64,000 bases of DNA from Halarcobacter sp. GTDB lineage: Bacteria; Campylobacterota; Campylobacteria; Campylobacterales; Arcobacteraceae. The notes beneath the pieces are model-generated. The model was given only the letters and a program-made list of their open reading frames with translations. It searched no databases and was not told the origin of the DNA. Shown piece by piece: positions 49,920-62,941 of this stretch. A program made the translations under genes and the position numbers. The stretch is taken from NCBI RefSeq assembly GCF_963675975.1, contig NZ_OY780939.1, positions 2,108,001 to 2,172,000 on the forward strand. The letters are read 5' to 3'. The stretch's first letter is position 1. Every line of letters begins with the position of its first letter.

Positions 49920-50267
49920 ATGGAGCAACTACCAAATTGTCCAAAATGTAATAGTGAATATACTTATGAAGATGGAAGTTTATTAATTTGTCCAGAGTGT
50001 GCACATGAGTGGTCAAAAGATGCAGATAATACTGAAGATGAAGATACTTTAGTTGTAAAAGATGCAAATGGAACAATTTTAAATGATGGTGATGATGTAA
50101 CAGTTATCAAAGATTTAAAAGTAAAAGGTAGTTCATCTGGAATCAAAGTTGGTACAAAAATCAAAGGTATTAGACTTGTTGAGGGTAATGATGGTCATAA
50201 CATTGACTGTAAAGTTCCTGGAGTAGGGGCTATCAAACTTAAACAAGAGTTTGTAAAAAAACAATAA
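49920..50267 (+). CDS. phnA: Zinc-ribbon protein PhnA/YjdM
   Basis: A 115-residue protein: N-terminal zinc ribbon [21 protein letters not shown] (Cys at about 7, 10, 24, 27) and the beta domain [26 protein letters not shown] typical of PhnA. Despite the name, the family is not required for phosphonate breakdown and its function is open. A TATAAT about 37 bases and AAAGGAA 5 bases upstream support this start. Confidence 0.95.
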
Positions 50268-50272
50268 TAATT

Positions 50273-50290
50273 AGGGCTCTCGCCCTTTTT
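50273..50290 (+). terminator. Terminator after phnA
   Basis: AGGGC (50273-50277), loop TCTC, GCCCT (50282-50286) and a T-run: a short GC-rich stem placed right after the stop. Confidence 0.8.
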
Positions 50291-50360
50291 ATGTCAAATT
50301 ATTTTATCAATTTGACATTTATAATTTTTTCTACTACAATTTTACCAAACAATCGTTTGG
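50291..50360 (+). promoter_or_regulatory. tetR promoter with operator
   Basis: The -35 TTGACA (50312-50317), 17-base spacer and -10 TACAAT (50335-50340) form a near-consensus promoter. CCAAAC-AATC-GTTTGG (50345-50360) covers the likely transcription start and recurs at 50943. A second inverted repeat, ATGTCAAATT (50291-50300) with AATTTGACAT (50309-50318), overlaps the -35. Confidence 0.75.
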
Positions 50361-50368
50361 ATAAATAA

Positions 50369-50923
50369 ATGGCAATCAAGAAAACATCAGCAGAGCAGAT
50401 ACTTACAGAATCAATAAGTCTTTTTAAGAGAAGAGGGTATTATAATACTTCAATGGCAAACATAGCAGAAGCTTGTGGTCTTATAAAAGGGAGTATTTAT
50501 CATCACTTTAAAAGCAAAGATGAAATAGGTATTGAGTCTTTGAAGTATATCCATGAGTATTTTGTAAAAAATATTTTTTCTGTAGCATATGAAACTAACA
50601 CATCTCCTAAAGATAGAATGGATAATTTTGTAAAAAAAACTGATAACTATTTTTTAAATAGTGAAGGTGGATGTTTATTAGGAAATTTAGCTTTAGAGGT
50701 TGCCCATGAAAATGAGAACTTTAAAGAGGTTATTCGTACATATTTTACAGCTTGGGAAAATGCTCTTTATGAGATATTGAAAGATAGACATTATAGTGAA
50801 GATGCTAAAAACCTAGCAAAAGAATATGTATCATTGACTCAAGGGGCTATTATGATGATGAACCTATATGACAATAAAGATATCTATTTAGATGTTGGAA
50901 AAAAATTAAAAAATTTAGTCTAA
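50369..50923 (+). CDS. TetR-family transcriptional regulator
   Basis: A 184-residue repressor: helix-turn-helix at about 12-55 (GYYNTSMANIAEACGLIKGSIYHHFKSKDEI), ligand domain after it with the QorR/AcuR-like GGCLLGNLALEVA segment (about 93), which marks the TetR_C group seen beside reductases. It probably binds the two CCAAACAATCGTTTGG-type sites, repressing itself and the DUF1348 gene. The ligand is not evident. Confidence 0.92.
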   Translation: MAIKKTSAEQILTESISLFKRRGYYNTSMANIAEACGLIKGSIYHHFKSKDEIGIESLKYIHEYFVKNIFSVAYETNTSPKDRMDNFVKKTDNYFLNSEGGCLLGNLALEVAHENENFKEVIRTYFTAWENALYEILKDRHYSEDAKNLAKEYVSLTQGAIMMMNLYDNKDIYLDVGKKLKNLV

Positions 50924-50942
50924 AATTTTTTTGCCTATCTAT

Positions 50943-50958
50943 TCAAACAATCGTTTGG
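50943..50958 (+). promoter_or_regulatory. Second TetR operator, upstream of the DUF1348 gene
   Basis: TCAAACAATCGTTTGG equals the tetR operator at 15 of 16 positions and is followed by the same TAAATAA-type sequence. It lies 26 bases before the DUF1348 ATG. Confidence 0.72.
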
Positions 50959-50984
50959 TTAAATAAAATATAAAAGGAAAAGAG

Positions 50985-51458
50985 ATGAAAGAAGAGATAA
51001 AAGCGCCAGTTCCACCATTTAGTTATGAAGAAGCTGTACAAAAAGTAAGAATGGCAGAAAATGCATGGAATTCAAAAGATGCAAATAAAATATCATTTGC
51101 ATATACAAAAGATTCACAATGGAGAAATAGAGATTTATTTATAAATGGTAGAGATGAGATAGTTGAGTTTTTAGAAAATAAATTTGCAAAAGAAAAAGAG
51201 TATAGATTATGTAAAGAGTTATGGGCATACACAGAAAATAAAATTGCAGTTAGATTTGCATATGAGTGGAAAGATGAAAACAATCAATGGTATAGAAGTT
51301 ATGGGAACGAAAATTGGGAGTTTGCCAAAAATGGCTTAATGCAAAAAAGATTTGCTTGTATCAATGACTTGAAAATCGATGCCAAAGATAGGAAACTTAA
51401 CTGGGAAGGTAATAGTAGACCTGAAAAGTTCCCTTCTTTATCTGATTTAAATCTTTAA
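50985..51458 (+). CDS. DUF1348 (NTF2-like) family protein
   Basis: A 157-residue single-domain SnoaL/NTF2-like protein of the DUF1348 family: AENAWNSKDANKISFAYTKDSQWRNRD, EIVEFLENKFAKEKEYRLCKEL, RFAYEWKDENNQWYRSYGNE and the terminal RLNWE-like KLNWEGN and RPEKFPSLSDL. Known for compact stress-linked roles; reaction unknown. AAAAGGAAAAG precedes the ATG. It is presumably the target of the TetR protein. Confidence 0.92.
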   Translation: MKEEIKAPVPPFSYEEAVQKVRMAENAWNSKDANKISFAYTKDSQWRNRDLFINGRDEIVEFLENKFAKEKEYRLCKELWAYTENKIAVRFAYEWKDENNQWYRSYGNENWEFAKNGLMQKRFACINDLKIDAKDRKLNWEGNSRPEKFPSLSDLNL

Positions 51459-51643
51459 TCTTCAAATAGAGTTAATATCTAAAAAGTATAAACTCTACAC
51501 TATTCGTACGATATGTTAATAAAGTTGTACTATATGACATTGACAGTACAAAAATAATCTTATATAATTTCCCTATACATTTAACAAATGAAAAGTTTAG
51601 TGTATGTTTCTATAGAAAATTTATGATTAATCAAAGGCAAAAA

Positions 51644-52570
51644 ATGAAAGCAACCCTTTCAACAATATTAAATGAAATAAGAATAAATAATAGTTTTTAT
51701 GCACGTTCAGAGCTCTATGGTTCATGGGGGTTTGAAAATCCAGCATCAAATGGTGCGATATTTCATTATGTGGTTGAAGGGGAGTTTGAACTTAAAACCT
51801 TAGAGGGTGAAATTTATAAGTTTAAACAAGGCGATTTGGTTTTGACAGTAAATGGTAAAGGGCATTTCCTTCAAAGTCATGATGGTGTTCAAATCAAACA
51901 ATTAGAAGAATTGAGTTTAACAAAAGATGAAACAAATATCTTACAAGTAAAAGCAGGAAGTTCTGGTAAAAAAACAGTATTAATATGTGGAGGGATGAGT
52001 TTAAATCCATCTTGGCATCCATTGTTTAAAGCTTTACCAACTTTTATTTACTTAAAAAGAGAAGAGCAAGTTTGTACAGCTTGGTTAGACAAATTGATTG
52101 AACTGATGAATATTGAAGTTGAATTAGGTTTATCTGGAAGTGAAGCTATTATTACAAGGCTTTGTGAGGTTTTAGTTATCGAAACTATTAGAAAATGGAT
52201 AGATAAAAAAGATGAAAACCTTGGTTGGGCTTTAGCTTTACAGGATAAAAATATTGGGAATGCACTTGTAAAAATGCACACTAACCCAGAAATCTCTTGG
52301 ACTGTTGAAGAGTTAGCAAGACAAGCAGATATGTCAAGAACATCTTTTAGTGAGCATTTTTCAAAAAAAGTTGGTTCTAGTCCTATTAGCTATTTAAATT
52401 TTTTAAGAATGAATCTAGCAGCAGATGATTTGAAAAATGGAATAAAAACAATAACAGAGATTGCAAATACTGTTGGATATGATTCAGTTGTATCATTTAA
52501 TAGGGCATTTAAAAAATTTTGGGGTAAACCTCCTGGAGAATTCAGAGTTTTACCTAGTAATGTATTATAG
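51644..52570 (+). CDS. AraC-family transcriptional regulator
   Basis: About 308 residues: an AraC-type cupin sensor (cupin_6; residues about 20-190, GAIFHYVVEGEFEL, FKQGDLVLTVNGKGHFL) and a C-terminal pair of helix-turn-helix motifs (WTVEELARQADMSRTSFSEHF, then ITEIANTVGYDSVVSFNRAFK). I chose the ATG at 51644 with AAAGG 6 bases upstream, not 51623. This subgroup usually activates an adjacent oxidoreductase; the QorB-like gene follows with inverted repeats between. Confidence 0.92.
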   Translation: MKATLSTILNEIRINNSFYARSELYGSWGFENPASNGAIFHYVVEGEFELKTLEGEIYKFKQGDLVLTVNGKGHFLQSHDGVQIKQLEELSLTKDETNILQVKAGSSGKKTVLICGGMSLNPSWHPLFKALPTFIYLKREEQVCTAWLDKLIELMNIEVELGLSGSEAIITRLCEVLVIETIRKWIDKKDENLGWALALQDKNIGNALVKMHTNPEISWTVEELARQADMSRTSFSEHFSKKVGSSPISYLNFLRMNLAADDLKNGIKTITEIANTVGYDSVVSFNRAFKKFWGKPPGEFRVLPSNVL

Positions 52571-52576
52571 AAAAAA

Positions 52577-52680
52577 AGAACAACTCGTTGTTCTCTTTAG
52601 AATTTGTTTCTTTAGATAGAATTTATTTCTATCGATAAAAGAAATCATTAAATTTTGGTCCCTTTAAAAAGGGACTTTTT
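52577..52680 (+). promoter_or_regulatory. Structured spacer between araC-like and qorB-like genes
   Basis: Three inverted repeats in order: AGAACAA/TTGTTCT (52577-52594), GATAGAA/TTCTATC (52615-52633), and a terminator-like GTCCCTTT/AAAGGGAC (52658-52675) with T5, which ends directly at the RBS AAAGGA of the next gene. It may end araC transcription, act as an attenuator, or hold an AraC binding site. Confidence 0.6.
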
Positions 52681-52692
52681 AAAGGAATTATT

Positions 52693-53574
52693 ATGAAAAA
52701 ATATTTAGTAACTGGTGGAGCAGGTAAATTATCAAGTAAAGTAATTGAGGCATTATTAAACGATTTAAAAGTTAATCCAAGTGATTTAGTAACTACAACA
52801 AGAGATGTAAGTAAATTATCAGATTTAGCAAATAAAGGTGTTGAAGTTAGACAAGCAGATTTTCAAGATGTAAACTCATTAAAAGAGGCATTTAAAGATG
52901 TAGAAAATTTATTATTAATTAGTATTGACCAAATTGGAAAAAGAAAAGAGTATCATACAAATGCAATTAATGCAGCTCAAGAAGTAGGGGTTAAACATCT
53001 TGTTTATACATCTATGCCACACCCTGAGACTTCTCCTATTGGTTTTGCTTACGAGCATGAAGCTACAGAAGAGGCTTTAAAAAATAGTACAATTGCTAAT
53101 TGGACAATCTTAAGAAATAACTGGTATTTTGAAAACTATATTGAGTTTTATGGGGATACTTTTAAAACACAAAAATGGTTAAGTGCAGTTGCAAATGGGA
53201 AAGTTGCACAACTAAGTAGAGTTGACTTAGCATATGCAGCAGCAAGTGCTTTAGTTAAAGCTAAAGATGAAAAATCTGTTTATACTCTAAGTGGACAAGA
53301 GTCTTTAACAGTTGATGAAAGTGCAGCAATTTTCAATGAAGTATTAGGAAAAAATATTGAAGTTATACATGTAGATAATAAAACTTATAAAGAGCAACTA
53401 CTTTCATTTGGTGTACCTTCTGAGATTGTAGATATGTTAGCAGGTTTTGAAGAGCATAATAGAACAAATCTTTCAGATTTTACAAGTGAAGATTTTGAAA
53501 AATTAACAGGTAAAAAACCTTTAACATTAAAAGAATGGACTATTTTAAATAAAGAAAATATTTTAGCTCTTTAA
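52693..53574 (+). CDS. NmrA/QorB-like NAD(P)-binding oxidoreductase
   Basis: A 293-residue extended Rossmann protein resembling QorB (NADPH:quinone oxidoreductase 2): VTGGAGKLSSKVIEALL (the TGxxGxLG-like nucleotide loop near residue 7), ADFQDVNSLKEAF, NLLLISIDQIGKR, VKHLVYTSMPHP and ILRNNWYFENY. The catalytic Tyr-x3-Lys of true SDRs is not seen, as usual for NmrA types. It is paired with the AraC regulator upstream; the 3' end overlaps the convergent GNAT gene. Confidence 0.88.
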   Translation: MKKYLVTGGAGKLSSKVIEALLNDLKVNPSDLVTTTRDVSKLSDLANKGVEVRQADFQDVNSLKEAFKDVENLLLISIDQIGKRKEYHTNAINAAQEVGVKHLVYTSMPHPETSPIGFAYEHEATEEALKNSTIANWTILRNNWYFENYIEFYGDTFKTQKWLSAVANGKVAQLSRVDLAYAAASALVKAKDEKSVYTLSGQESLTVDESAAIFNEVLGKNIEVIHVDNKTYKEQLLSFGVPSEIVDMLAGFEEHNRTNLSDFTSEDFEKLTGKKPLTLKEWTILNKENILAL

Positions 53575-54108
53575 TAGATAAAAGCTATTTTTATCTATAG
53601 AATAAACTAAATGGTCATAAAGTTTTCCATTTAGTTTTTCTGCATCTTTTATAGTTCTTTCCATTTTCATATTAAGTTTTTTAGGTATTGCTTGGCTTTT
53701 TGTATTTTCTTTTGCACATCTTATTTCAACTTTTTCAAGTTTATAGTAAGAAAATCCTTGTTCAATCAAATCCTCTACACATTTTGTCATTATACCTTTT
53801 CCATTAAACTCTTCTGCTAACCAGTAACCAATAATACCTGTTTTATTTTCCATTGAGTTATATGCTAATACCCCAACAATCCTTTCTTTGTAAAATATTG
53901 TTTGATGTAGTGATTTCATATTTTTAAGATTTTCTAATTGGGATAAGATAAAACTATTAGTATCGTTTGGCTCTTTTATTGAGTCTATCCAAGGAAGCCA
54001 TTTACTTAGAAAATTACGATTTTTATTTGTTAGATGAAATAATTCATCTGTAAATAGGGTAGTTGTTAAATATACTTTTATATTTTTATCAATTATTCTA
54101 TAGTGCAT
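53563..54108 (-). CDS. RimJ/RimL-type GNAT acetyltransferase
   Basis: A 181-residue GNAT of the ribosomal-protein acetyltransferase group: LTNKNRNFLSKWLPWIDSIK at the N-terminus, YNSMENKTGIIGYWLAEEFNGKGI (about 92-115) for acetyl-CoA binding, and KVEIRCAKENTKSQAIPKKLNMK. It overlaps the convergent qorB-like gene by 12 bases. The substrate could be a ribosomal protein or small molecule. Confidence 0.92.
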   Translation of the reverse strand: MHYRIIDKNIKVYLTTTLFTDELFHLTNKNRNFLSKWLPWIDSIKEPNDTNSFILSQLENLKNMKSLHQTIFYKERIVGVLAYNSMENKTGIIGYWLAEEFNGKGIMTKCVEDLIEQGFSYYKLEKVEIRCAKENTKSQAIPKKLNMKMERTIKDAEKLNGKLYDHLVYSIDKNSFYLLKS

Positions 54109-54195
54109 TTATAAATCTTTTTTATAAAAGTGTAGTTATTTTTTATTTAAAGTTTTATAATATTGATAATAAATATTAAAAAAGTAGAATATAAT

Positions 54196-54228
54196 AAATA
54201 ACTAGTAGGATTTTCCTACCAGTTATTT
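54196..54228 (-). terminator. Terminator of the three-gene PhnD-like operon
   Basis: AAATAACTAGTAGG (54196-54209) pairs with CCTACCAGTTATTT (54215-54228), one mismatch, loop ATTTT; it overlaps the PhnD-like stop codon. Confidence 0.62.
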
Positions 54229-55046
54229 TTCATAAGATCTTGTTCTCTCATTGCTTGGGTTAAAATTTTATAACCTTTTAACTCTTCTTCTTTTGTTAAA
54301 ACCCATTTGTTTAATCCTTCCATCTCCATCATTTTTTTAATAATAGGATCATTTGGATCTTGTTTTAACATCATATCAATAAATGTATTTTTTACATTTT
54401 CATCTAGTGTATCTAATGTAGTAAAGTTACAATGACAATAACCTTCACTTACATAAAAAGATTCAACTTCTCCACTTGGAAACATGCCATCTTCTAACAT
54501 TCTAATCCAAGAGCTAATCCCAATAGCTCCTGCATCAATATCATCATTTAGAATAGAATCTAAAATATCAAATTCACTTCTTCCTGTGTCTCCATGTTTC
54601 CCTAAGTCAGAATTGTATCTTACGATATCTACATCATTTATTTCATCTTTTAATTCAGTTTCAAGATATTTAAGTGGTAAAATAGCAGCTTGAGCAGAAT
54701 CTGCACTTCCAAGACCAAATTTTTTACCCTTTAGGTCTTGAATAGTTTTAATTCCACTAGATGCTTTTGTGATAAATACAGATTTAAAATCTATATCAGT
54801 ATCTCTCATAAGTAAAGCTTGGGCTTTCCCTTGGCTTAACTCTTTTGTTCTAACCCAAGCAACATTAGTATTCCAAGCAATATCAATTTTCCCTGATAAC
54901 AAATACTCAATTTGTGCTTCATAATTTGAAAACAATATATAATCTAGTCTTACACCATTATCATTAAAATAGTCTCTAATAATATCCCAGATTGTAACGA
55001 TTTTTGGATCATATGCAACAGATCCTACTACTATAGGTTTATTCAT
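54216..55046 (-). CDS. PhnD-like substrate-binding protein without signal peptide
   Basis: A 276-residue type II periplasmic-binding fold of the PhnD (phosphate/phosphonate) group: VGSVAYDPKIVTIWD, YLLSGKIDIAWNTNVAWV, KGKKFGLGSADSAQAAILPL and DAGAIGISSWI. Unusually there is no signal peptide, lipoprotein box or transporter gene, so it should stay in the cytosol as a sensor or carrier of the substrate of the two enzymes encoded upstream. AGGAATAAA precedes the ATG. Confidence 0.85.
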   Translation of the reverse strand: MNKPIVVGSVAYDPKIVTIWDIIRDYFNDNGVRLDYILFSNYEAQIEYLLSGKIDIAWNTNVAWVRTKELSQGKAQALLMRDTDIDFKSVFITKASSGIKTIQDLKGKKFGLGSADSAQAAILPLKYLETELKDEINDVDIVRYNSDLGKHGDTGRSEFDILDSILNDDIDAGAIGISSWIRMLEDGMFPSGEVESFYVSEGYCHCNFTTLDTLDENVKNTFIDMMLKQDPNDPIIKKMMEMEGLNKWVLTKEEELKGYKILTQAMREQDLMKNNW

Positions 55047-55055
55047 TTTTATTCC

Positions 55056-56183
55056 TTACATTAGTGGTTGATTTGTTAAAGCTTTTCCAAGCCATGTTGT
55101 AATTACATCTGTACTAGGAGCCATAACTTGTGCAGCTAAAGAGTCTCTTAATAATCTTTCAATAGTAATTCTTTTTGCATAAGCAGTTCCACCACCTATT
55201 TTCATAGCTTTTGTACAAACATCAACTGCTACTTTAGAAGCGTGTAATCTTGCTGCTAATACATTTGCTTGTGCATCTGCATCCCCATTTGTAACACTTC
55301 TTGCTGCTGAAAGTGTAAAGTGTTTTGCACTAGCTGCATCTGTATATATATCTGAAATATGATTTTGTACAGTTGGTATATTACATAAAGAAGTGTCATC
55401 ACTATATTTTCTACTCATTGAATATTCAGTGATAGTATTAGCCGCATTTACTGCAACTCCACTATAAACAGCTGCTAGACCCATAATAAAAAATGGACCA
55501 ACAGTATTAAATATTTGATCAAGTCCAGATTTTTCTTCCCCAATTCTATAACTTTCGTCAAGTTTTACATTTTCAAGTAACATTGGACAAGAAGCATTTC
55601 CTCTCATACCTAATCCATCCCAAGCTGATTCTTGGAAAACAACACCAGCTGCATCTTTTGGAACAAGCCAGTTATCTAAGTCTTCACTATTTGGATTAGC
55701 AGCATCAACAAGGTATAAATCAGCATATTCAGCAGATGTTACAAAACTTTTTCTTCCATTCATAACAAATAGGTCATTTTCTTTTGTAACTTTAATCTCT
55801 GGATTATAAAAGTGAGTTCCTGTACCACTTTCACTATAAGCTAATGCTAACATTATCTCACCATTTGCAATTTTTGGAAGGTATTTTTGTTTCATCTCTT
55901 CACTACCATGAGTTACTACACAATTTGTTGCAACATTATGCATCATATAACATAAAGCAGTTGTTGCACAATAACTTGCAAATGCAAGTACTGTTTGTGT
56001 ATGCTCTTCAAAACCTAGACCCATTCCCCCATACTCTTTAGGAACCATTAGTCCTGTAATTTTTTTCTTTTTAATTGCTTCAAAAGCATCAACTGGGAAA
56101 CTTGCAGATTTATCTACAGAGTCCGTATACGGTGCAATATTTTCTTTTGCAAACTCAATCATTTGATTATATAAATTGTTCAT
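55056..56183 (-). CDS. Acyl-CoA-dehydrogenase-like flavoprotein
   Basis: A 375-residue member of the acyl-CoA dehydrogenase fold: helical N-domain with KKKITGLMVPKEYGGMGLGFEEHTQ, the flavin beta-domain AYSESGTGTHFYNPEIKV and RKSFVTSAEYADLY, and a C-terminal helical domain. Where classical enzymes carry the catalytic Glu (YEGTSEI), this one reads MAPSTDVITTWLG, so it is probably not a dehydrogenase; DszC-like flavin monooxygenases show such loss. It sits between the TusA/ferritin-like and PhnD-like genes, 8 and 9 bases apart. Substrate unknown. Confidence 0.86.
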   Translation of the reverse strand: MNNLYNQMIEFAKENIAPYTDSVDKSASFPVDAFEAIKKKKITGLMVPKEYGGMGLGFEEHTQTVLAFASYCATTALCYMMHNVATNCVVTHGSEEMKQKYLPKIANGEIMLALAYSESGTGTHFYNPEIKVTKENDLFVMNGRKSFVTSAEYADLYLVDAANPNSEDLDNWLVPKDAAGVVFQESAWDGLGMRGNASCPMLLENVKLDESYRIGEEKSGLDQIFNTVGPFFIMGLAAVYSGVAVNAANTITEYSMSRKYSDDTSLCNIPTVQNHISDIYTDAASAKHFTLSAARSVTNGDADAQANVLAARLHASKVAVDVCTKAMKIGGGTAYAKRITIERLLRDSLAAQVMAPSTDVITTWLGKALTNQPLM

Positions 56184-56191
56184 TTGTTTTC

Positions 56192-57442
56192 CTACATAAA
56201 ATTTGGTGTATGAACTTTAGAGATTTCATTCGCTAAGTCTTCATCCATACCAATATCAATTAATCTTTTAATTCTGTTAGAGTTCATTTTTTCTTTTAAC
56301 TCTTCAACTAAATCAAATCCTTTTTTATAATCAGCAGGCTGATCACTTCCTCCTGCTAATACTGCTAAAGATTCAAGTAATATAGAGGATTCACTATTAA
56401 TCTCATCCATAAACTCTTTTCTTTTAAATGCTGTATTTTTTAGAGCATTTATCCTTTTTGGATTTTGTTCAATTGCAGATTTTACATGTTCCATCCCATA
56501 AGCTACATGTCTCATCTCATCTCTTTTTGCTAGTTTTATTATTTTTCTTGTAGCCTCATCTGGCATATGTTTTTCTAAGAAGTTTAATAAGTCAACAAAC
56601 GTTCCTTCGCCCATTACATGGAGTAAAAAAGAACTTTTTATATAGTCTTCTTCTTTAAAAAGTGAATACAATGAACGTTGAGTAACTTCACTTGAGTATT
56701 GAAATCCTCCTCCATTTGCATTTGCTCTTTTTGTAAAAACTTCTATATGTCTTGCTTCATCATTCATTAAAGATGACAGAAATAAGGGAACTTCCATGTA
56801 ATAAGGGTTTATTTTACTAATAAATTTTCCAGGGATATAAAGAGCTGAAAATTCATTTTCTACTAGATATGTCATTATTTGGCATATAGCTTTTTCTAAA
56901 ACTGGATCAAGATTTGGAATCTCATTCCAAGCTATATCAGTTGTAGCATTCCACTGAAGATTTTTACCCTCTTCATATAAAACTGACACAGGTTCAGACC
57001 AAACAAGTTCTTTGTGAGATAATTCAAAATCATAAAAGGGAGTTCCTTCTTGTGTAACTATACCTCTTGTTAAAAGACCATTGTCTTCAGGAGCTTTTTT
57101 TAGTATCTCTTCACTTAGATTTAAATCTTTTAATTTAGGATTAGAACTCTCTATGCCTTTCATTTTATTTCCCCATGAAGGCTTACCAGTAAAATTATTT
57201 TTCCCAATTTTCTGGATTTTATATGAGAATTGTTCTTTAAGGCTTTCTCTACCTAAATATAAATGTCCTCGTAGTTTTGCCCAACCTCTTAATTCAATTT
57301 CAATATTTGCTTTCATAGAGACAATCTCTATAATTGAATGTTGTTCAGCAACTAAAAAAGCATTTTCAAGTTTTAGAAAAAGTTCTTTTGATGGGGGAGT
57401 GTTACCTGTAAAAATTGATATACAATGGTTTAGATTATTCAA
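56192..57442 (-). CDS. TusA-like / ferritin-like diiron fusion protein
   Basis: A 416-residue protein starting at TTG (57442). Residues about 1-80 look like a TusA fold (EIVSMKANIEIELRGWAKLRGH) but without the CPxP Cys (TPPSKE instead). From about 150 comes a ferritin-like diiron domain with carboxylate/His motifs NEFSALYIPG (about 206), NDEARHIEVF (about 242), GEGTFVDLL (about 285) and KRDEMRHVAYGMEH (about 312), i.e. two E/D-ExxH-type half sites. It could activate O2 for oxidation together with the flavoprotein. The N-terminal assignment is uncertain; the diiron motif is clear. Confidence 0.8.
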   Translation of the reverse strand: MNNLNHCISIFTGNTPPSKELFLKLENAFLVAEQHSIIEIVSMKANIEIELRGWAKLRGHLYLGRESLKEQFSYKIQKIGKNNFTGKPSWGNKMKGIESSNPKLKDLNLSEEILKKAPEDNGLLTRGIVTQEGTPFYDFELSHKELVWSEPVSVLYEEGKNLQWNATTDIAWNEIPNLDPVLEKAICQIMTYLVENEFSALYIPGKFISKINPYYMEVPLFLSSLMNDEARHIEVFTKRANANGGGFQYSSEVTQRSLYSLFKEEDYIKSSFLLHVMGEGTFVDLLNFLEKHMPDEATRKIIKLAKRDEMRHVAYGMEHVKSAIEQNPKRINALKNTAFKRKEFMDEINSESSILLESLAVLAGGSDQPADYKKGFDLVEELKEKMNSNRIKRLIDIGMDEDLANEISKVHTPNFM

Positions 57443-57449
57443 AAAGAAT

Positions 57450-57519
57450 CTCCAAAATCGATTTAATTTTGGCCATCCGATAAAATATATAAAATTATGG
57501 TGGAATCTCAGCCTGAGAT
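57450..57519 (-). promoter_or_regulatory. Structured leader of the TusA/ferritin-like operon
   Basis: ATCTCAG-C-CTGAGAT (57505-57519) is a 15-base palindrome. Nearer the start, CCAAAAT/ATTTTGG (about 57455-57475) forms a hairpin that includes TTTTGG directly before the GGAG Shine-Dalgarno, and CCAT/ATGG flanks enclose the rest. It may be a protein operator plus an RBS-sequestering hairpin. Confidence 0.45.
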
Positions 57520-57700
57520 CTTAATTTTTGTATTTTATCAAATAATCTTAAGAAAAAAGTTAAAAAAGTAAAAAATATTTTACTTTTTATAATTAAAGTA
57601 TTAATTTAATATAAATATAATCTAAAAAGATTATTTTTTATTCTTCATACTATTTTCTTATGAGAATTTTTTTGTATAATTAAATAAAACAGGTTTTAAA

Positions 57701-58540
57701 ATGGAATATACATTATCTACTAATAATATAAAAGTACCTAAAATGATTTATGGTACAGCTTGGAAAAAAGAAAAAACTGCTTCATTGGTTAAAGAGGCAA
57801 TATTAAGTGGTTTTAGAGGAATTGATACTGCGTGTCAACCAAGACATTATCAAGAAGATTTAGTTGGTGACGGTATTCAAGAGGCTTACAAAGAAGGGAT
57901 AAAAAGAGAAGACTTATATATTCAAACAAAATTTACTCCTATTGATGGGCAAGATAAGAATAATATGCCTTATTTAGAAAGCGATTCTATTTCTTTACAA
58001 GTTGAAAAGTCATTTGAAACTTCAAAGAAAAATCTAAAAACAGACTACATAGATACTTATATCTTACATTCACCAGTTTTTCCTGGAAGCAAATTACTAA
58101 ATGTATGGAATACAATGAGTAGTTTTCAAAAAAACAAAGAAGTAGGGCAGTTAGGGATTAGTAATTGTTACGATTTAGATGTATTAAAATATTTATATGA
58201 AAAAGTAGAGATTAAACCTGCTATAGTTCAAAACAGATTTTATGCCCAAACATCTTATGATAAAACAATTAGACAATGGTGTGATGAAAAAGGGATTATA
58301 TATGAAAGTTTTTGGTCTCTAACTGCAAATCCTGAGATTTTAAATAGTGAGTTAATTTTTACTTTATCAAGAAAATATAAAAGAACGAATGTATCAGTTT
58401 TTTATAGATTTTTAAATCAAATTGGAATAATACCTTTAAATGGTACAACAACAAAAGAGCATATGATTGAGGATTTAAAGATATTTGAGTTTTCTTTAGA
58501 AAAAGAGGATATTAAAAAGATTTTAGAGTTGCTAAAATAG
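57701..58540 (+). CDS. Aldo/keto reductase family protein
   Basis: A 279-residue NADPH-dependent reductase of the AKR TIM-barrel fold: IDTACQPRHYQED (about 41), KREDLYIQTKFTPIDG with the Lys, DYIDTYILHSP (catalytic His near 125), GQLGISNCYDLDVLKYL and NGTTTKEHMIEDL. The tetrad Asp-Tyr-Lys-His is traceable. It carries an AKR subset feature (long insertion before YIQTK). Substrate unknown; a lone gene between an operon promoter and a bidirectional terminator. Confidence 0.9.
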   Translation: MEYTLSTNNIKVPKMIYGTAWKKEKTASLVKEAILSGFRGIDTACQPRHYQEDLVGDGIQEAYKEGIKREDLYIQTKFTPIDGQDKNNMPYLESDSISLQVEKSFETSKKNLKTDYIDTYILHSPVFPGSKLLNVWNTMSSFQKNKEVGQLGISNCYDLDVLKYLYEKVEIKPAIVQNRFYAQTSYDKTIRQWCDEKGIIYESFWSLTANPEILNSELIFTLSRKYKRTNVSVFYRFLNQIGIIPLNGTTTKEHMIEDLKIFEFSLEKEDIKKILELLK

Positions 58541-58562
58541 ATTGTAAAAACAATCTATTTTA
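58533..58562. terminator. Bidirectional terminator after the aldo/keto reductase
   Basis: TAAAATAGATTG (58533-58544) pairs perfectly over 12 bp with CAATCTATTTTA (58551-58562), overlapping both convergent stops. Confidence 0.87.
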
Positions 58563-59292
58563 TCTCAACTCCATATTTTTGAAGTAATTTAACCCATGAA
58601 ACTTTTTCACCATCTTTATTAAATATTGATGGAGTTCCTGAAATCCCAAGTTTAGCAGCTATTGCCATTTGTTCATCAAGATTTTTTTGTAATTTTTCAA
58701 GTTCACCATCTTTGTATTTTCTGTTTTTAAAATCTGCTGTATCTTTTGTAGTTTCCGTCATAGCTTTTGTTTGACTTTTATAATCATTTTTACTCATAAT
58801 ATATAAAGAGATATCTTTAGCATTTTTATGGAAAGGTAATGGATAAAAGAAAACTCTCATTTTAACTTTATCTTCTATTTGATGGAAATAAGACTCAAAT
58901 TTTTTACAATATGGACACTCTGGGTCTGTAAATAATACATATTCATCTTTTCCTGTACCAAATGTTAAAGCTTCTTTACCAATTGTTGGTTTTAAATCAA
59001 CTGGCATATCTGGAATCATTAAAGGCATTCCTGTATTTGTATCTACCATTTCACCTTGAATTAAATATTTTTTGTCTTTAGTTAAATAAATTTTATGTGC
59101 TTTTCCTCTAACTGTAATATTTAATAAATAAACATTTCCTTCATCAAATCCTCTATCAATTGTAATTCCAGCATTTTTAAAAAGTGTTAAATCTTGAAAT
59201 TCATTGATTTTTTCTTTTGGTAAAAGGTTTGCTGCATTTGCAGCACTTATCATTGCTAATGCAATTAAGGCCGTCTTTAAAAGTTTAAACAT
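58555..59292 (-). CDS. DsbC/DsbG-type thiol:disulfide isomerase
   Basis: A periplasmic thioredoxin-fold protein. I take the ATG at 59292 (AGGAATAAA upstream), giving 245 residues with a signal peptide ending near AANA (about residue 20). The N-terminal dimerisation domain covers about 22-110, and the thioredoxin domain has the redox CPYC at FTDPECPYCKKFESYF (about 130-145); ISGTPSIF supplies the cis-Pro loop. It repairs or forms disulfides in secreted proteins. A lone gene. Confidence 0.93.
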   Translation of the reverse strand: MFKLLKTALIALAMISAANAANLLPKEKINEFQDLTLFKNAGITIDRGFDEGNVYLLNITVRGKAHKIYLTKDKKYLIQGEMVDTNTGMPLMIPDMPVDLKPTIGKEALTFGTGKDEYVLFTDPECPYCKKFESYFHQIEDKVKMRVFFYPLPFHKNAKDISLYIMSKNDYKSQTKAMTETTKDTADFKNRKYKDGELEKLQKNLDEQMAIAAKLGISGTPSIFNKDGEKVSWVKLLQKYGVEIK

Positions 59293-59350
59293 TTTTATTC
59301 CTATATATAGATTTTGCAACATAATACAATGTTAATGTTTAGAAAACGTG

Positions 59351-59388
59351 AAGTTTTTAATTATTATTCAAAAAACAATTAAAAACTT
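59351..59388 (-). terminator. Terminator of the HxlR-AEC operon
   Basis: AAGTTTTTAATT (59351-59362) pairs perfectly with AATTAAAAACTT (59377-59388), overlapping the AEC transporter stop. Confidence 0.65.
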
Positions 59389-60281
59389 AACATTTTAAAT
59401 ATTATATAAGTTGTTGGAAAAGAGATTAAAATTCCATAACCAACAATTGCAGAACTAAGTCTTGGAGCTAATCCTGCCATAGAAGCAATAGCACCAGCTG
59501 TAATCATTGGAGCCATTCCTGCTTCAAGTATAGAAACAATTGAAGCTTGATTATCCCAAGAAAAAAGTATACATATTCCAAATGCAATTAATGGAGCAAT
59601 TACAAGTTTTACAATTAAAGCAACACTAAAAGGCTTGATTTCACTTCTTGGAAGTTTAAATTGAAGTTGTAGTCCAACTGCAACTAAAGCAATTGGTACT
59701 ATAGTTGAAGCAAGAGAGCTTAAAACTTTTGTAATAGTTTCATTAAATTCTACACCCATTAAAAATAGGGCGACAACTAATGATAAAAATGGTGGGAATG
59801 TTAATACTTTATAAACAATAATTTTAAAACTAATTTCAGTTTTACTAGAATAATATGAAGCAATAAAGGTTCCATATATTGCTAAAGCAATAAAAGTTCC
59901 CAATTGATCATATATAAGGACATAAGGTAAAGCACTTTCACCTATATAAGCATTTATAATTGGAATACCCATAAATGAAGAGTTTGTTAAAATTGCTACT
60001 AATAATAATGATCCAGTAATCTCTTTAGAAAAACTAAAAAACTTACATAAGTATAATATCAGTATAGCTGTAATAGTCATAACTAACCAAGCTATAATTA
60101 TAGGTATTAAAGCATCCATAGAAAAACTAAGTTTTGGAATTTGAAGCAAAATCATTGCTGGAAGCGAGATATAAATAGCAAATTGATTTAGGGTTGTAGC
60201 AGCATCTTTTGAAAAAATATGTAATCTTCTAATCCCATATCCTATTGCTATACACAATAGAATAAGTATAAAGTTTTCCAT
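59379..60281 (-). CDS. AEC-family (auxin-efflux-carrier-like) transporter
   Basis: A 300-residue membrane protein of about ten helices: IAIGYGIRRLHIFSKDA, NQFAIYISLPAMILLQIPKLS, LVAILTNSSFMGIPIINAYIG (about 95-115) and APLIAFGICILFSW. The NSSFMGIPI motif marks the AEC family, which exports small carboxylates or amino-acid derivatives. Its ATG overlaps the stop of the HxlR gene by one base, so it is probably under that regulator. Confidence 0.91.
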   Translation of the reverse strand: MENFILILLCIAIGYGIRRLHIFSKDAATTLNQFAIYISLPAMILLQIPKLSFSMDALIPIIIAWLVMTITAILILYLCKFFSFSKEITGSLLLVAILTNSSFMGIPIINAYIGESALPYVLIYDQLGTFIALAIYGTFIASYYSSKTEISFKIIVYKVLTFPPFLSLVVALFLMGVEFNETITKVLSSLASTIVPIALVAVGLQLQFKLPRSEIKPFSVALIVKLVIAPLIAFGICILFSWDNQASIVSILEAGMAPMITAGAIASMAGLAPRLSSAIVGYGILISFPTTYIIFKMLSF

Positions 60282-60673
60282 TAAGAGTGAAATCCTGCTT
60301 TTTCTGAGATTTTTAATTCACAACACTCTTTTTCGTCAGTCATTTTACCATGTTCGTTTGCATAAGAGATTCCCCATTCGTACATCTCTTTTAAAACTGG
60401 TTTTAATTTTTCACCACTTTTTGTTAAAGAATATACAACTTTTGGTGGAACTTCAGGAAAAACTTCCCTGTTTATAATATTTTTTTCTTCTAATTCTTTT
60501 AATTTAACTGTTAAAGTTTTTTGAGTAATTTCTGAAATGTTTTCATGCAGTTCTTTAAATCTTTTTTCTCCTGCAAGTAGTTGCCAAATAATTGATAGTT
60601 TCCATCTGTCATTAAAGATATCAAGAGTAATTGCAACTGAACATTTATACTCTTTATCATTTACATAATACAT
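60281..60673 (-). CDS. HxlR-family transcriptional regulator
   Basis: A 130-residue winged-helix HxlR protein: CSVAITLDIFNDRWKLSIIWQLL, GEKRFKELHENISEITQKTLTVKLKELEEKNII and REVFPEVPPKVVYSLTKSG. Cys at position about 11 (KECSVA-type) occurs in the place used by redox/quinone-sensing HypR/YodB regulators; a second CC pair is near the C-terminus (KECCELKIS). Two near-identical 35-bp elements lie upstream of the divergent exporter gene and of the downstream MFS gene, and are its probable binding sites. Confidence 0.93.
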   Translation of the reverse strand: MYYVNDKEYKCSVAITLDIFNDRWKLSIIWQLLAGEKRFKELHENISEITQKTLTVKLKELEEKNIINREVFPEVPPKVVYSLTKSGEKLKPVLKEMYEWGISYANEHGKMTDEKECCELKISEKAGFHS

Positions 60674-60724
60674 AATAAATCCTTTTCAAATTTGATTATA
60701 ACATAAATACTATAAAATTCCATA

Positions 60725-60773
60725 ACTTACCAAAAGTAAAGCAAGAGTATTTTAAGTTTGTAAGATATATAAT
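60725..60773 (+). promoter_or_regulatory. 35-bp element A and promoter for the DMT exporter gene
   Basis: Positions 60725-60759 match element B (61712-61746) at 33 of 35 positions. The core contains CTTAC-N10-GCAAG (60726-60745). A -10 TATAAT (60768-60773) follows 8 bases after. It lies between hxlR and the divergent exporter gene. Confidence 0.75.
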
Positions 60774-60797
60774 TCACAAAATTTTAAAAGGAAGAGT

Positions 60798-61703
60798 TTG
60801 AACAAAACAGAAAATAAAACAAAATATTTTATAGGAATGATTATAGCTATGATTTTTTGGGGAATAGCATGGACTTCAGGAAAAGTCACAATGGAACACT
60901 CAAGCCCTCAAGTTGCAGCTTTTTGGAGATATTTCATCTCATTTATTAGTATTATTCCTGTTGTATTTTATTTAAAAACCTCTCTTAAAACAGATAAAGT
61001 AGGAATTATATATATGATATTAGCTGGACTTTTAAGTGCAGCATTTAATTATCTGTTTTTTGTTGGTTTATCACATGGTGAAGCAGGATATGGAGGAACA
61101 ATAGTAACTTCATTGGTTCCACTACTAACTTATGTAATGTCAATATTAATTTTAGGAACAAAAGTAAATAGCAGACAAGTTGTTGCTTTATCGGTTGGAT
61201 TTTTTGGAGCTATTATACTATTACGAATTCCAATGGATGGATTAGGTTTTCTAAATATAAATAGTTCATATTTTTTATTATGTGCACTTGTATGGGCTGT
61301 TGTTACAATTTTAGCTCAAAAAGCATCTTCAAGAGCAAACCCTATGTTATATACTTTAATAGTATTTGGAATAACTAGTTTTGTAAATATGATTTTTGCA
61401 ATGCCATATCATCCTTTTGATTTTGCAAGTTTAGACTCTATATTTTGGTGGAATATACTTTTTATTGGACTTTTCTCAGGTACTTTTAGTATGACTTTAT
61501 TTTTTATTTCTGCAAGTCATTTAGGGGCACATCAAGCTGGTGTATTTATGTTTATTGTTCCAATTGGGGCAATTGTATCTAGTTGGATTGTATATGATGA
61601 GAGGATTATGTTATCGACAATAATTGGGTGTTTATTGTCATTTGTAGCAGTTATTTTATTTAATACTAAAAAAAGATTTAGAGCAAATATTAAAAAAAAT
61701 TAA
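60798..61703 (+). CDS. EamA/DMT-superfamily transporter
   Basis: A 301-residue ten-helix transporter starting at TTG with AAAAGGAAG upstream. Two EamA repeats: IAMIFWGIAWTSGKVTMEHS with AAFWRYFISFISIIPV, and a second repeat with FSMTLFFISASHLGAHQAGVFMFIVPIGAIVSSW. It probably exports toxic compounds or amino acids under HxlR control (element A). Not closely similar to the EamA protein at 45935. Confidence 0.91.
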   Translation: MNKTENKTKYFIGMIIAMIFWGIAWTSGKVTMEHSSPQVAAFWRYFISFISIIPVVFYLKTSLKTDKVGIIYMILAGLLSAAFNYLFFVGLSHGEAGYGGTIVTSLVPLLTYVMSILILGTKVNSRQVVALSVGFFGAIILLRIPMDGLGFLNINSSYFLLCALVWAVVTILAQKASSRANPMLYTLIVFGITSFVNMIFAMPYHPFDFASLDSIFWWNILFIGLFSGTFSMTLFFISASHLGAHQAGVFMFIVPIGAIVSSWIVYDERIMLSTIIGCLLSFVAVILFNTKKRFRANIKKN

Positions 61704-61711
61704 ATACCCTT

Positions 61712-61759
61712 ACTTACCTAAAGTAAAGTAAGAGTATTTTAAGTTTATAGTGTTATAAT
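61712..61759 (+). promoter_or_regulatory. 35-bp element B and promoter for the MFS operon
   Basis: Positions 61712-61746 repeat element A. The core is CTTAC-N10-GTAAG (61713-61732). An extended -10 TGT-TATAAT (61751-61759) follows 4 bases later. Confidence 0.77.
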
Positions 61760-61786
61760 TTCTCTCAAGATATGAAAAGGATAATT

Positions 61787-62941
61787 ATGCCAATAGCTTT
61801 AATTGCTCTTACTCTTAGTGCATTTGCAATAGGAACAACTGAATTTGTAACAGTTGGATTAGTACCAACAATTTCTAACGACCTCTTAATCTCTGTTCCC
61901 TCAACAGGATTGTTAGTTACAATGTATGCAGTTGGAGTAGCTATTGGAGCCCCAATTTTAACAGCCTTGTCTAGTAAATATAATAAGAAAGCAGTTTTAA
62001 TAATGGCAATGGTTGTTTTTTCTTTAGGTCACATAGTTTCTGCACTTTCTCCTAATTTTACAACATTATTATTAGCAAGAACTATAACAGGTCTAACACA
62101 TGGATTATTCTTTTCTATTGGAGCAACTATTGCTACAGGTTTAGTTTCTAAAGAGAAAGCAGCAAGTGCAATTGCTGTTATGTTTGGAGGTTTAACTGTA
62201 GCAATGGTATTAGGGGTTCCACTAGGAACATATATTGGCCAAGAATTTGGTTGGAGAAATACTTTTTTTATTATTTCCCTTTTAGGTACAATTGCATTTA
62301 TTAGTATAATTTTTTTATTGCCTAATAATATAAAAGTAACAACCCCTGACAAATTCTTTAATCAAATGAAAATCTTGGCAAACCCTAAACTTCTTATTGC
62401 TTATTTAATTACAATATTTGGTTTCGGTGGTCCCTTTATTGCATTTACTTTTTTAGTACCTATTTTAGAAAATATTACAAATTTTAAATCAACTATTATT
62501 TCATTAATTTTATTAGCTTTTGGAGCAGCAACAATAGTTGGTAACTATTTTGGTGGTAAATTTGCTGACAAGTTTGGAGTAGATAAAGTATTATTTGCTT
62601 TTTTTGCAGCTTTAAGTTTAACACTTCTTTCACTTAGTTTTTTTGCTCATAATCAAAGGATAACTATATTTATACTTTTTTTGTGGAGGATTTTTGCATT
62701 TGCAACAAGTCCAGCTTTACAGGCAAATGTTGTGAAAATAGCAACAACAAATGAACCCCATGCAGTGGATGTGGCTTCTGGGTTTAATATCAGTGCTTTT
62801 AATGTTGGTATTGCTTTATGGTCATCTGTTGGTGGTGCTGTAGTTGCAAACATAGGTTTGCTTCAAACAACATGGATATCTGCAATAATTGTATCTTTAT
62901 CATTGATTTTGATTACAATTGGATATAAATTACAAAAATAA
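61787..62941 (+). CDS. MFS-family drug/metabolite efflux transporter, AraJ/YdhP-like
   Basis: A 384-residue twelve-helix major facilitator: FAIGTTEFVTVGLVPTISNDL near the start, VGVAIGAPILTALSSKYNKK, ARTITGLTHGLFFSIGAT and LGVPLGTYIGQEFGWRNTFF. I take the ATG at 61787 with AAAAGGA upstream rather than 61772. It heads an operon with an MdaB-like quinone reductase, a YgiN-like monooxygenase and a nitroreductase, all consistent with quinone or nitro-compound stress. Confidence 0.92.
   Translation: MPIALIALTLSAFAIGTTEFVTVGLVPTISNDLLISVPSTGLLVTMYAVGVAIGAPILTALSSKYNKKAVLIMAMVVFSLGHIVSALSPNFTTLLLARTITGLTHGLFFSIGATIATGLVSKEKAASAIAVMFGGLTVAMVLGVPLGTYIGQEFGWRNTFFIISLLGTIAFISIIFLLPNNIKVTTPDKFFNQMKILANPKLLIAYLITIFGFGGPFIAFTFLVPILENITNFKSTIISLILLAFGAATIVGNYFGGKFADKFGVDKVLFAFFAALSLTLLSLSFFAHNQRITIFILFLWRIFAFATSPALQANVVKIATTNEPHAVDVASGFNISAFNVGIALWSSVGGAVVANIGLLQTTWISAIIVSLSLILITIGYKLQK

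Follow-up and report, generated by a model that had tools for sequence, protein, structure and literature searches.

A conserved operon of a TusA-like diiron protein, an acyl-CoA-dehydrogenase-fold protein without its catalytic base and a cytosolic PhnD/PtxB-fold protein, with a suggestive link to selenium

The stretch of DNA analysed here (the window, 64,000 nucleotides at positions 2,108,001-2,172,000 of the 3.27 Mb genome of Halarcobacter sp., which consists of one contig) carries three genes on the minus strand that recur together in five phyla and almost certainly form a real functional unit. They encode a protein joining a TusA-like domain to a diiron oxidase domain (FER), a protein of the acyl-CoA-dehydrogenase fold that, judged from its alignment, has lost the dehydrogenase base (ACAD), and a PhnD/PtxB-fold protein that is predicted to stay in the cytosol (SBP). 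The module probably performs oxidative chemistry, while the chance that its substrate contains sulfur or selenium falls a little short of even. As a tentative explanation of the whole, we propose that FER, ACAD and SBP oxidise a small organic compound of sulfur or selenium in the cytosol and bind the oxyanion that is set free; that the module supplies selenium is doubtful. As far as the literature searched reaches, the diiron version of this gene cassette is undescribed. A unit that persists across five phyla, with its genes in two orders and one partner exchanged, must have a specific job, and this job was found named nowhere.

The three genes are arranged in tandem as FER (56192..57442, 416 aa), ACAD (55056..56183, 375 aa) and SBP (54216..55046, 276 aa), with intergenic gaps of 8 and 9 bases, which bears out the single tight operon described in the first-pass annotation of this DNA. 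FER begins with a TTG codon, a start also used in nine close relatives, and the closest named relatives of SBP belong to Aliarcobacter, Arcobacter and Poseidonibacter. The neighbourhood comparison which that annotation had called for covered 62 loci: 48 from a genome scan with SBP, three on plasmids and 11 from Myxococcota (besides G305, Myxococcota have 13 places with an SBP match at E <=2e-38, of which 12 were taken as long stretches). L136 shares its contig with L036 and was hence not counted as an extra Sulfuricurvum locus, and the order count excludes L132, whose SBP match is weak (29.5%). FER-ACAD-SBP is the order at 38 loci and ACAD-SBP-FER at seven, all in Myxococcota; ten loci have ACAD-SBP, six have SBP alone (L045 and L046 among them are truncated where the contig stops), and one, L049 from a Helicobacteraceae metagenome-assembled genome (MAG), is a decaying remnant with a FER remnant and a shortened SBP. 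In an Arcobacter MAG (L006:5592-6854) FER is broken into two frames.

Among the sampled Campylobacterota, FER was found in 35 of 298 genomes and 11 of 58 genera, and all 35 genomes also have SBP. Across 299 sampled genomes from the phylum of the Ammoniphilus host, full-length FER occurred in that host only, with partial matches in 22 others, and the plasmids gave no FER match at E 1e-5. In trees built from chosen rows, the Brachyspira copies (L016-L018, L022, L023) adjoin Helicobacter for all three genes, and the FER and ACAD trees put them within Campylobacterota with strong support. This placement indicates that the operon moved as a whole unit between gut bacteria of different phyla, and sequence comparison shows the three genes to be a unit that is inherited and transferred as one.

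The PhnD/PtxB assignment of SBP is clear at the level of fold. The structure model (pLDDT 95.2) has PhnD with phosphate as its best match (Z 25.1, root-mean-square deviation (rmsd) 3.5, 257 aligned), and the fold search returned PhnD/PtxB-type binding proteins down to E 2e-23 and THI5 structures at E 4e-13. An in-frame TAA lies three codons ahead of the ATG, and therefore no alternative start can add a signal peptide, a possibility that is thus excluded in the window. Peak hydropathy at the N-terminus is 1.33, compared with 1.86-2.25 in four periplasmic relatives. The open frame before the SBP start spans <=10 codons in 33 of 49 relatives; it is longer in the other 16, where the test for a signal peptide is weaker. 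Both observations agree with the earlier proposal of a PhnD-like protein kept in the cytosol, and the operon, as also proposed, has no permease or ATPase gene among its open reading frames. SBP would be a clear example of a binding protein of the transporter type at work inside the cell. In its tree a long branch of 1.91 changes per column leads to a separate SBP clade (support 100/100). A divergent SBP also occurs in Myxococcota (L128-L131) without FER or ACAD, downstream of a metallophosphatase-like gene, named from a reading of the sequence.

Two NCBIfam families named after mycobacterial loci, Rv1679 (NF049984) and Rv1680 (NF049985), are distantly related to ACAD and SBP, respectively, while Rv1681 (NF049973) comprises radical-SAM proteins. 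On these models the window proteins remain under the cut-offs (ACAD 285.8 bits against 600, SBP 327.1 bits against 400), whereas proteins from a plasmid of M. vanbaalenii exceed them (631.1 and 495.3 bits, respectively). The ten loci with ACAD-SBP but no FER all belong to Actinobacteria, and a radical-SAM gene of the Rv1681 type is present in each, incomplete in L118 and displaced in L119; L045, which is cut ahead of ACAD, carries one too. Conversely, this gene type is absent at E 1e-10 from all 45 FER loci, of which some stretches are just 3.5-5 kb, and none adjoins the window operon. No full-length FER was found in the three actinobacterial genomes that were searched whole, although in one of them the search picked up other diiron proteins weakly (best 2.8e-10). 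As the radical-SAM gene accompanies ACAD-SBP exactly where FER is absent, an O2-dependent enzyme (FER) and an O2-independent one (radical SAM) apparently replace each other beside ACAD-SBP and would carry out equivalent steps. The relationship of the ACAD-SBP pair to Rv1679-Rv1680 also means that a function found in a tractable host would carry over to the mycobacterial proteins. Near some actinobacterial ACAD-SBP pairs (L117:2336-3723, L117:11488-13856, L119:1-6770) lie carboxymuconolactone-decarboxylase-type, deiodinase-like, TrsS-like radical-SAM and TIGR04282-type genes, as well as selD in L119. TIGR04282-type and glycosyltransferase genes near such pairs had raised arsenosugars as a lead, which was dropped since nothing similar recurs beside the FER operons.

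FER has no confident Pfam family, with weak matches to DUF455, AurF and R2-type proteins. Its structure model, from an alignment of 25 relatives, has a mean pLDDT of 80.9. The N-terminal domain (about residues 1-90, 57173..57442) resembles E. coli TusA (3lvj_C; TM 0.80 by target, rmsd 2.1 over 73 columns), although PF01206 did not reach E 1 on FER. The TusA active-site Cys (CPxP) is not kept: the 44 FER rows show no conserved Cys there (motif counts use rows above the length limit and without long N runs, i.e. 44 of 46 for FER, 54 of 56 for ACAD and 62 of 63 for SBP), and the sole Cys column in the first 100 residues filled in >30% of rows is column 55 (24/44). The FER profile also matches TusA-type genes in both Bacillota hosts. 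In the second domain (about residues 150-410, 56213..56995) the diiron ligands Glu195, Glu197, Glu229-xx-His232, Glu279 and Glu309-xx-His312 are kept: E229 occurs in 43 of the 44 rows, E279 likewise in 43 with an X in the last one, and the remaining ligands in all 44. Aldehyde-deformylating oxygenase (Z 21.2, rmsd 2.4, 209 aligned), VlmB (Z 21.1, rmsd 3.6, 252 aligned) and R2lox, the R2-like ligand-binding oxidase (Z 19.0, rmsd 4.0, 235 aligned), are its structural neighbours in the VIA-align list, which concerns only the diiron part of FER and is silent on the TusA domain. R2lox proteins have a Val-Tyr crosslink and a Mn/Fe cofactor; on the NCBIfam R2lox model FER scores 36.7 bits, under the cut-off of 194, with the ligand pattern E, ExxH, E, ExxH present. 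The description of FER as a diiron protein is supported, and that of a TusA/ferritin-like protein stands for fold and ligands but not for the TusA active site. Finally, FER ends in the C-terminal tail HTPNFM (56195..56212), whose motif HT-x-NFM does not vary among the 44 rows, which come from Campylobacterota, Brachyspira, Bacillota and Myxococcota. Ribonucleotide reductase R2 has a tail that docks into its partner, and by analogy the FER motif, invariant and at the very end of the protein, is probably a docking element for a partner protein.

ACAD matches all three acyl-CoA-dehydrogenase domains (PF02771, PF02770 and PF00441) above their gathering scores. The column of the catalytic Glu, within the VMAP motif (residues 353-356, 55116..55127), holds Ala in 53 of 54 rows and Gly in one, and is flanked by an invariant Met and an invariant Pro. 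A catalytic Glu elsewhere was considered and rejected, as columns 227-244, which cover the second known position, contain neither Glu nor Asp in any of the 54 rows. Of the His residues, His82 is present in every row and His124 in 51 of 54. The first suggestion, made from the window alone, that ACAD is unlikely to be an ordinary dehydrogenase is supported. On models of characterised relatives it scores 172 bits for acryloyl-CoA reductase, 124.3 for 3-sulfinopropanoyl-CoA desulfinase, 98 for SfnB and 57.6 for DszC. The desulfinase is itself an acyl-CoA-dehydrogenase fold without the catalytic base.

A link to selenium is suggestive and comes from gene neighbourhood and genome content. In Sulfuricurvum, selD immediately precedes FER in all five loci (L034-L037, L044) and selB follows a few kb downstream, and selA adjoins selB in all three loci that reach that far. 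The island (L034-L037, L044; also L136) reads selD-FER-ACAD-SBP, followed on the opposite strand by a response regulator, a histidine kinase and a periplasmic receptor, and then selB and selA. In two Sulfuricurvum genomes without the operon, selA and selB were not found within a 19.5 kb stretch around selD. Both selD (above cut-off) and selA are present in 47 of 47 FER genomes tested (35 Campylobacterota, one further Sulfuricurvum, two Bacillota, two Brachyspira and seven Myxococcota). On a Miltoncostaea plasmid selD lies ~6 kb from ACAD, and the best plasmid match of SBP outside its family is a putative selenate-binding protein adjoining mnmH and selD. The Halarcobacter host has its own selD outside the window (2087162-2089664), ~73 kb from the operon and adjoined by selA, with one in-frame TGA that likely encodes selenocysteine. 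Both Bacillota hosts (L145:3288-5948, L147:2669-5220) have TusA, DsrE, TusA-OsmC and MetE-core genes in a row, with the Ammoniphilus MetE-core copy in two frames, and a MetE-core gene, 52-55% identical to the Bacillota copies, follows SBP in Myxococcales L046. Core-MetE was rejected as a member of the system, being present in just 3 of 64 genomes searched at E 1e-20.

Several observations weigh against a selenium module. The background of selD is high (223/298, 74/112 and 86/150 genomes, 57-75%), and the co-occurrence probabilities (P 1.9e-5 and 0.05) ignore kinship among related hosts, so that the link is overstated. Of the seven actinobacterial genomes that carry the radical-SAM version, only three have selD, and the four that lack it are MAGs. 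Outside Sulfuricurvum, neither selA, selB nor selD lies beside FER operons in the stretches fetched, and the SBP tree does not join SBP with the selenate-binding protein. The module itself is also not always complete: SBP stands alone in four Myxococcota loci, and five of the 40 Campylobacterota genomes with an SBP match at E <1e-40 have no FER.

Taken together, the TusA domain and the selD linkage lean, if weakly, to sulfur or selenium over phosphorus as the element concerned. In the proposed mechanism, FER would activate O2 and oxidise a small organic sulfur or selenium compound, possibly with its TusA-like domain as the docking site. ACAD, without the usual proton abstraction, could then complete the cleavage or oxidation in the manner of the base-less desulfinase. 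SBP, whose fold binds phosphite-like oxyanions, would hold the substrate or the released oxyanion in the cytosol. FER organisms decode selenocysteine as far as tested, and the module would most likely feed selenium (or sulfur) towards SelD. In its fullest form, this would be an undescribed O2-dependent route, with a radical-SAM counterpart in Actinobacteria, in which a TusA-diiron oxidase and a base-less ACAD free organic selenium (or sulfur) and a cytosolic SBP carries the oxyanion towards SelD, a scheme still somewhat more doubtful than selenium supply as such. If the selenium reading is true, a source of selenium for selenoproteins would be named.

Alternatively, though this is unlikely, the operon may serve sulfur scavenging, with an organosulfur compound oxidised to release sulfite or sulfide for assimilation and the selD link reflecting a shared lifestyle. 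The TusA-like domain of FER, the scores of ACAD on SfnB and the sulfinate desulfinase (98 and 124 bits) and the presence of DoxX and sulfurtransferase-like genes near some actinobacterial loci (sulfurtransferase and DsrE being named from sequence reading) would all fit such a role. However, no gene for sulfonate or sulfur assimilation recurs beside the operon, and the active-site Cys of TusA is lost in FER.

It is also conceivable, if quite improbable, that SBP is an enzyme or catalytic partner and not a carrier, in the manner of THI5 or MqnA/MqnD, which are cytosolic enzymes with a binding-protein fold. Besides its predicted cytosolic location, SBP has highly conserved residues, of which R81, D116 and S117 occur in all 62 rows, H151 and D153 in 61, H205 in 57 and C206 in 58, and THI5, a suicide enzyme with a PLP-binding Lys and a donor His, is among its fold matches. 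Against this, PhnD/PtxB-type binding proteins match far better (E to 2e-23 compared with 4e-13). N-oxygenation of an amine by a pair as in the valanimycin pathway, where an acyl-CoA-dehydrogenase-fold flavin monooxygenase without the catalytic Glu (VlmH) and a diiron azoxy synthase (VlmB) work one after the other, is a slimmer prospect again. The fold of FER resembles that of VlmB (Z 21.1), with a weak sequence match as well (E 0.015), and ACAD lacks the catalytic Glu as VlmH-type enzymes do, but ACAD scores far higher on acyl-CoA-type models (172 bits) than on the flavin monooxygenase DszC (57.6 bits), and the operon has no recurring neighbour that is a flavin reductase or amine gene. Phosphonate or phosphite metabolism, in which SBP would bind a phosphonate for oxidation by the two enzymes, is very unlikely, as the PhnD/PtxB-like fold and profile of SBP and the listing of Rv1680 as a putative phosphonate transporter component in the part of PMC8562490 consulted stand against the lack of any recurring phn, ptx or htx cluster beside the operon and the separate, long-branched SBP clade.

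Returning to the proposed sulfur or selenium module, published work offers little on its parts. The literature searched contained no paper with both Rv1679 and Rv1680 or with both fadE16 and moeX, no function for the Rv1679 and Rv1680 families, whose NCBIfam names are locus tags only, and no pathway with this three-gene composition. The earlier statement that no such pathway is described therefore holds for the combination, while its parts are partly named, as NCBIfam Rv1679, Rv1680 and Rv1681 and as actinobacterial clusters of ACAD, SBP and radical-SAM genes. The annotation of Rv1680 was based on fold similarity (PMC8562490), and the missing signal peptide disfavours a transport role for the window SBP. 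Rv1679 is listed in a hypoxia proteome (PMC5017210), and the sections consulted of these two papers give no tested function for either protein. Likewise, the portions consulted of three studies on the comparative genomics of selenium (PMC5322559, PMC9312934, PMC5029168) mention neither PhnD nor acyl-CoA.

The operon is bordered by a GNAT acetyltransferase gene downstream and a divergent aldo/keto reductase gene upstream, neither of which was found in at least three of the compared loci. A terminator-like stem-loop of 15 pairs at the operon end (54196..54228, minus strand), a pattern match only, overlaps the SBP stop; the region has three such sites against 1.4 expected. An Rfam scan of 50000-62000 gave nothing above threshold.

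Compared with known systems, the operon combines familiar parts in a different way. YedF/FdhU, a TusA-DsrE protein that the part of PMC5322559 consulted connects with the selenium-dependent formate dehydrogenase of C. jejuni, likewise has a TusA-like domain in selenium-using organisms including Campylobacterota, but FER differs in missing the active-site Cys and in carrying a diiron domain where YedF has DsrE. With PhnD/PtxB and the putative selenate ABC binding proteins, SBP shares fold and profile, yet it lacks a signal peptide, has neither a permease nor an ATPase gene beside it in the operon and forms a separate clade. FER has the diiron fold and ligand pattern of R2lox, VlmB and aldehyde-deformylating oxygenase, to which it adds the TusA-like domain and the invariant C-terminal tail. 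ACAD shares with 3-sulfinopropanoyl-CoA desulfinase an acyl-CoA-dehydrogenase fold missing the catalytic Glu, although it reaches only 124.3 of the 600 bits asked for by that model and the operon has no CoA gene. Another counterpart is the Rv1679-Rv1680-Rv1681 cassette of Actinobacteria, in which homologous ACAD and SBP genes are adjacent and in the same order. DoxX, which is common beside the actinobacterial ACAD-SBP genes, is not in the window operon, where the diiron protein FER takes the place of the radical-SAM enzyme.

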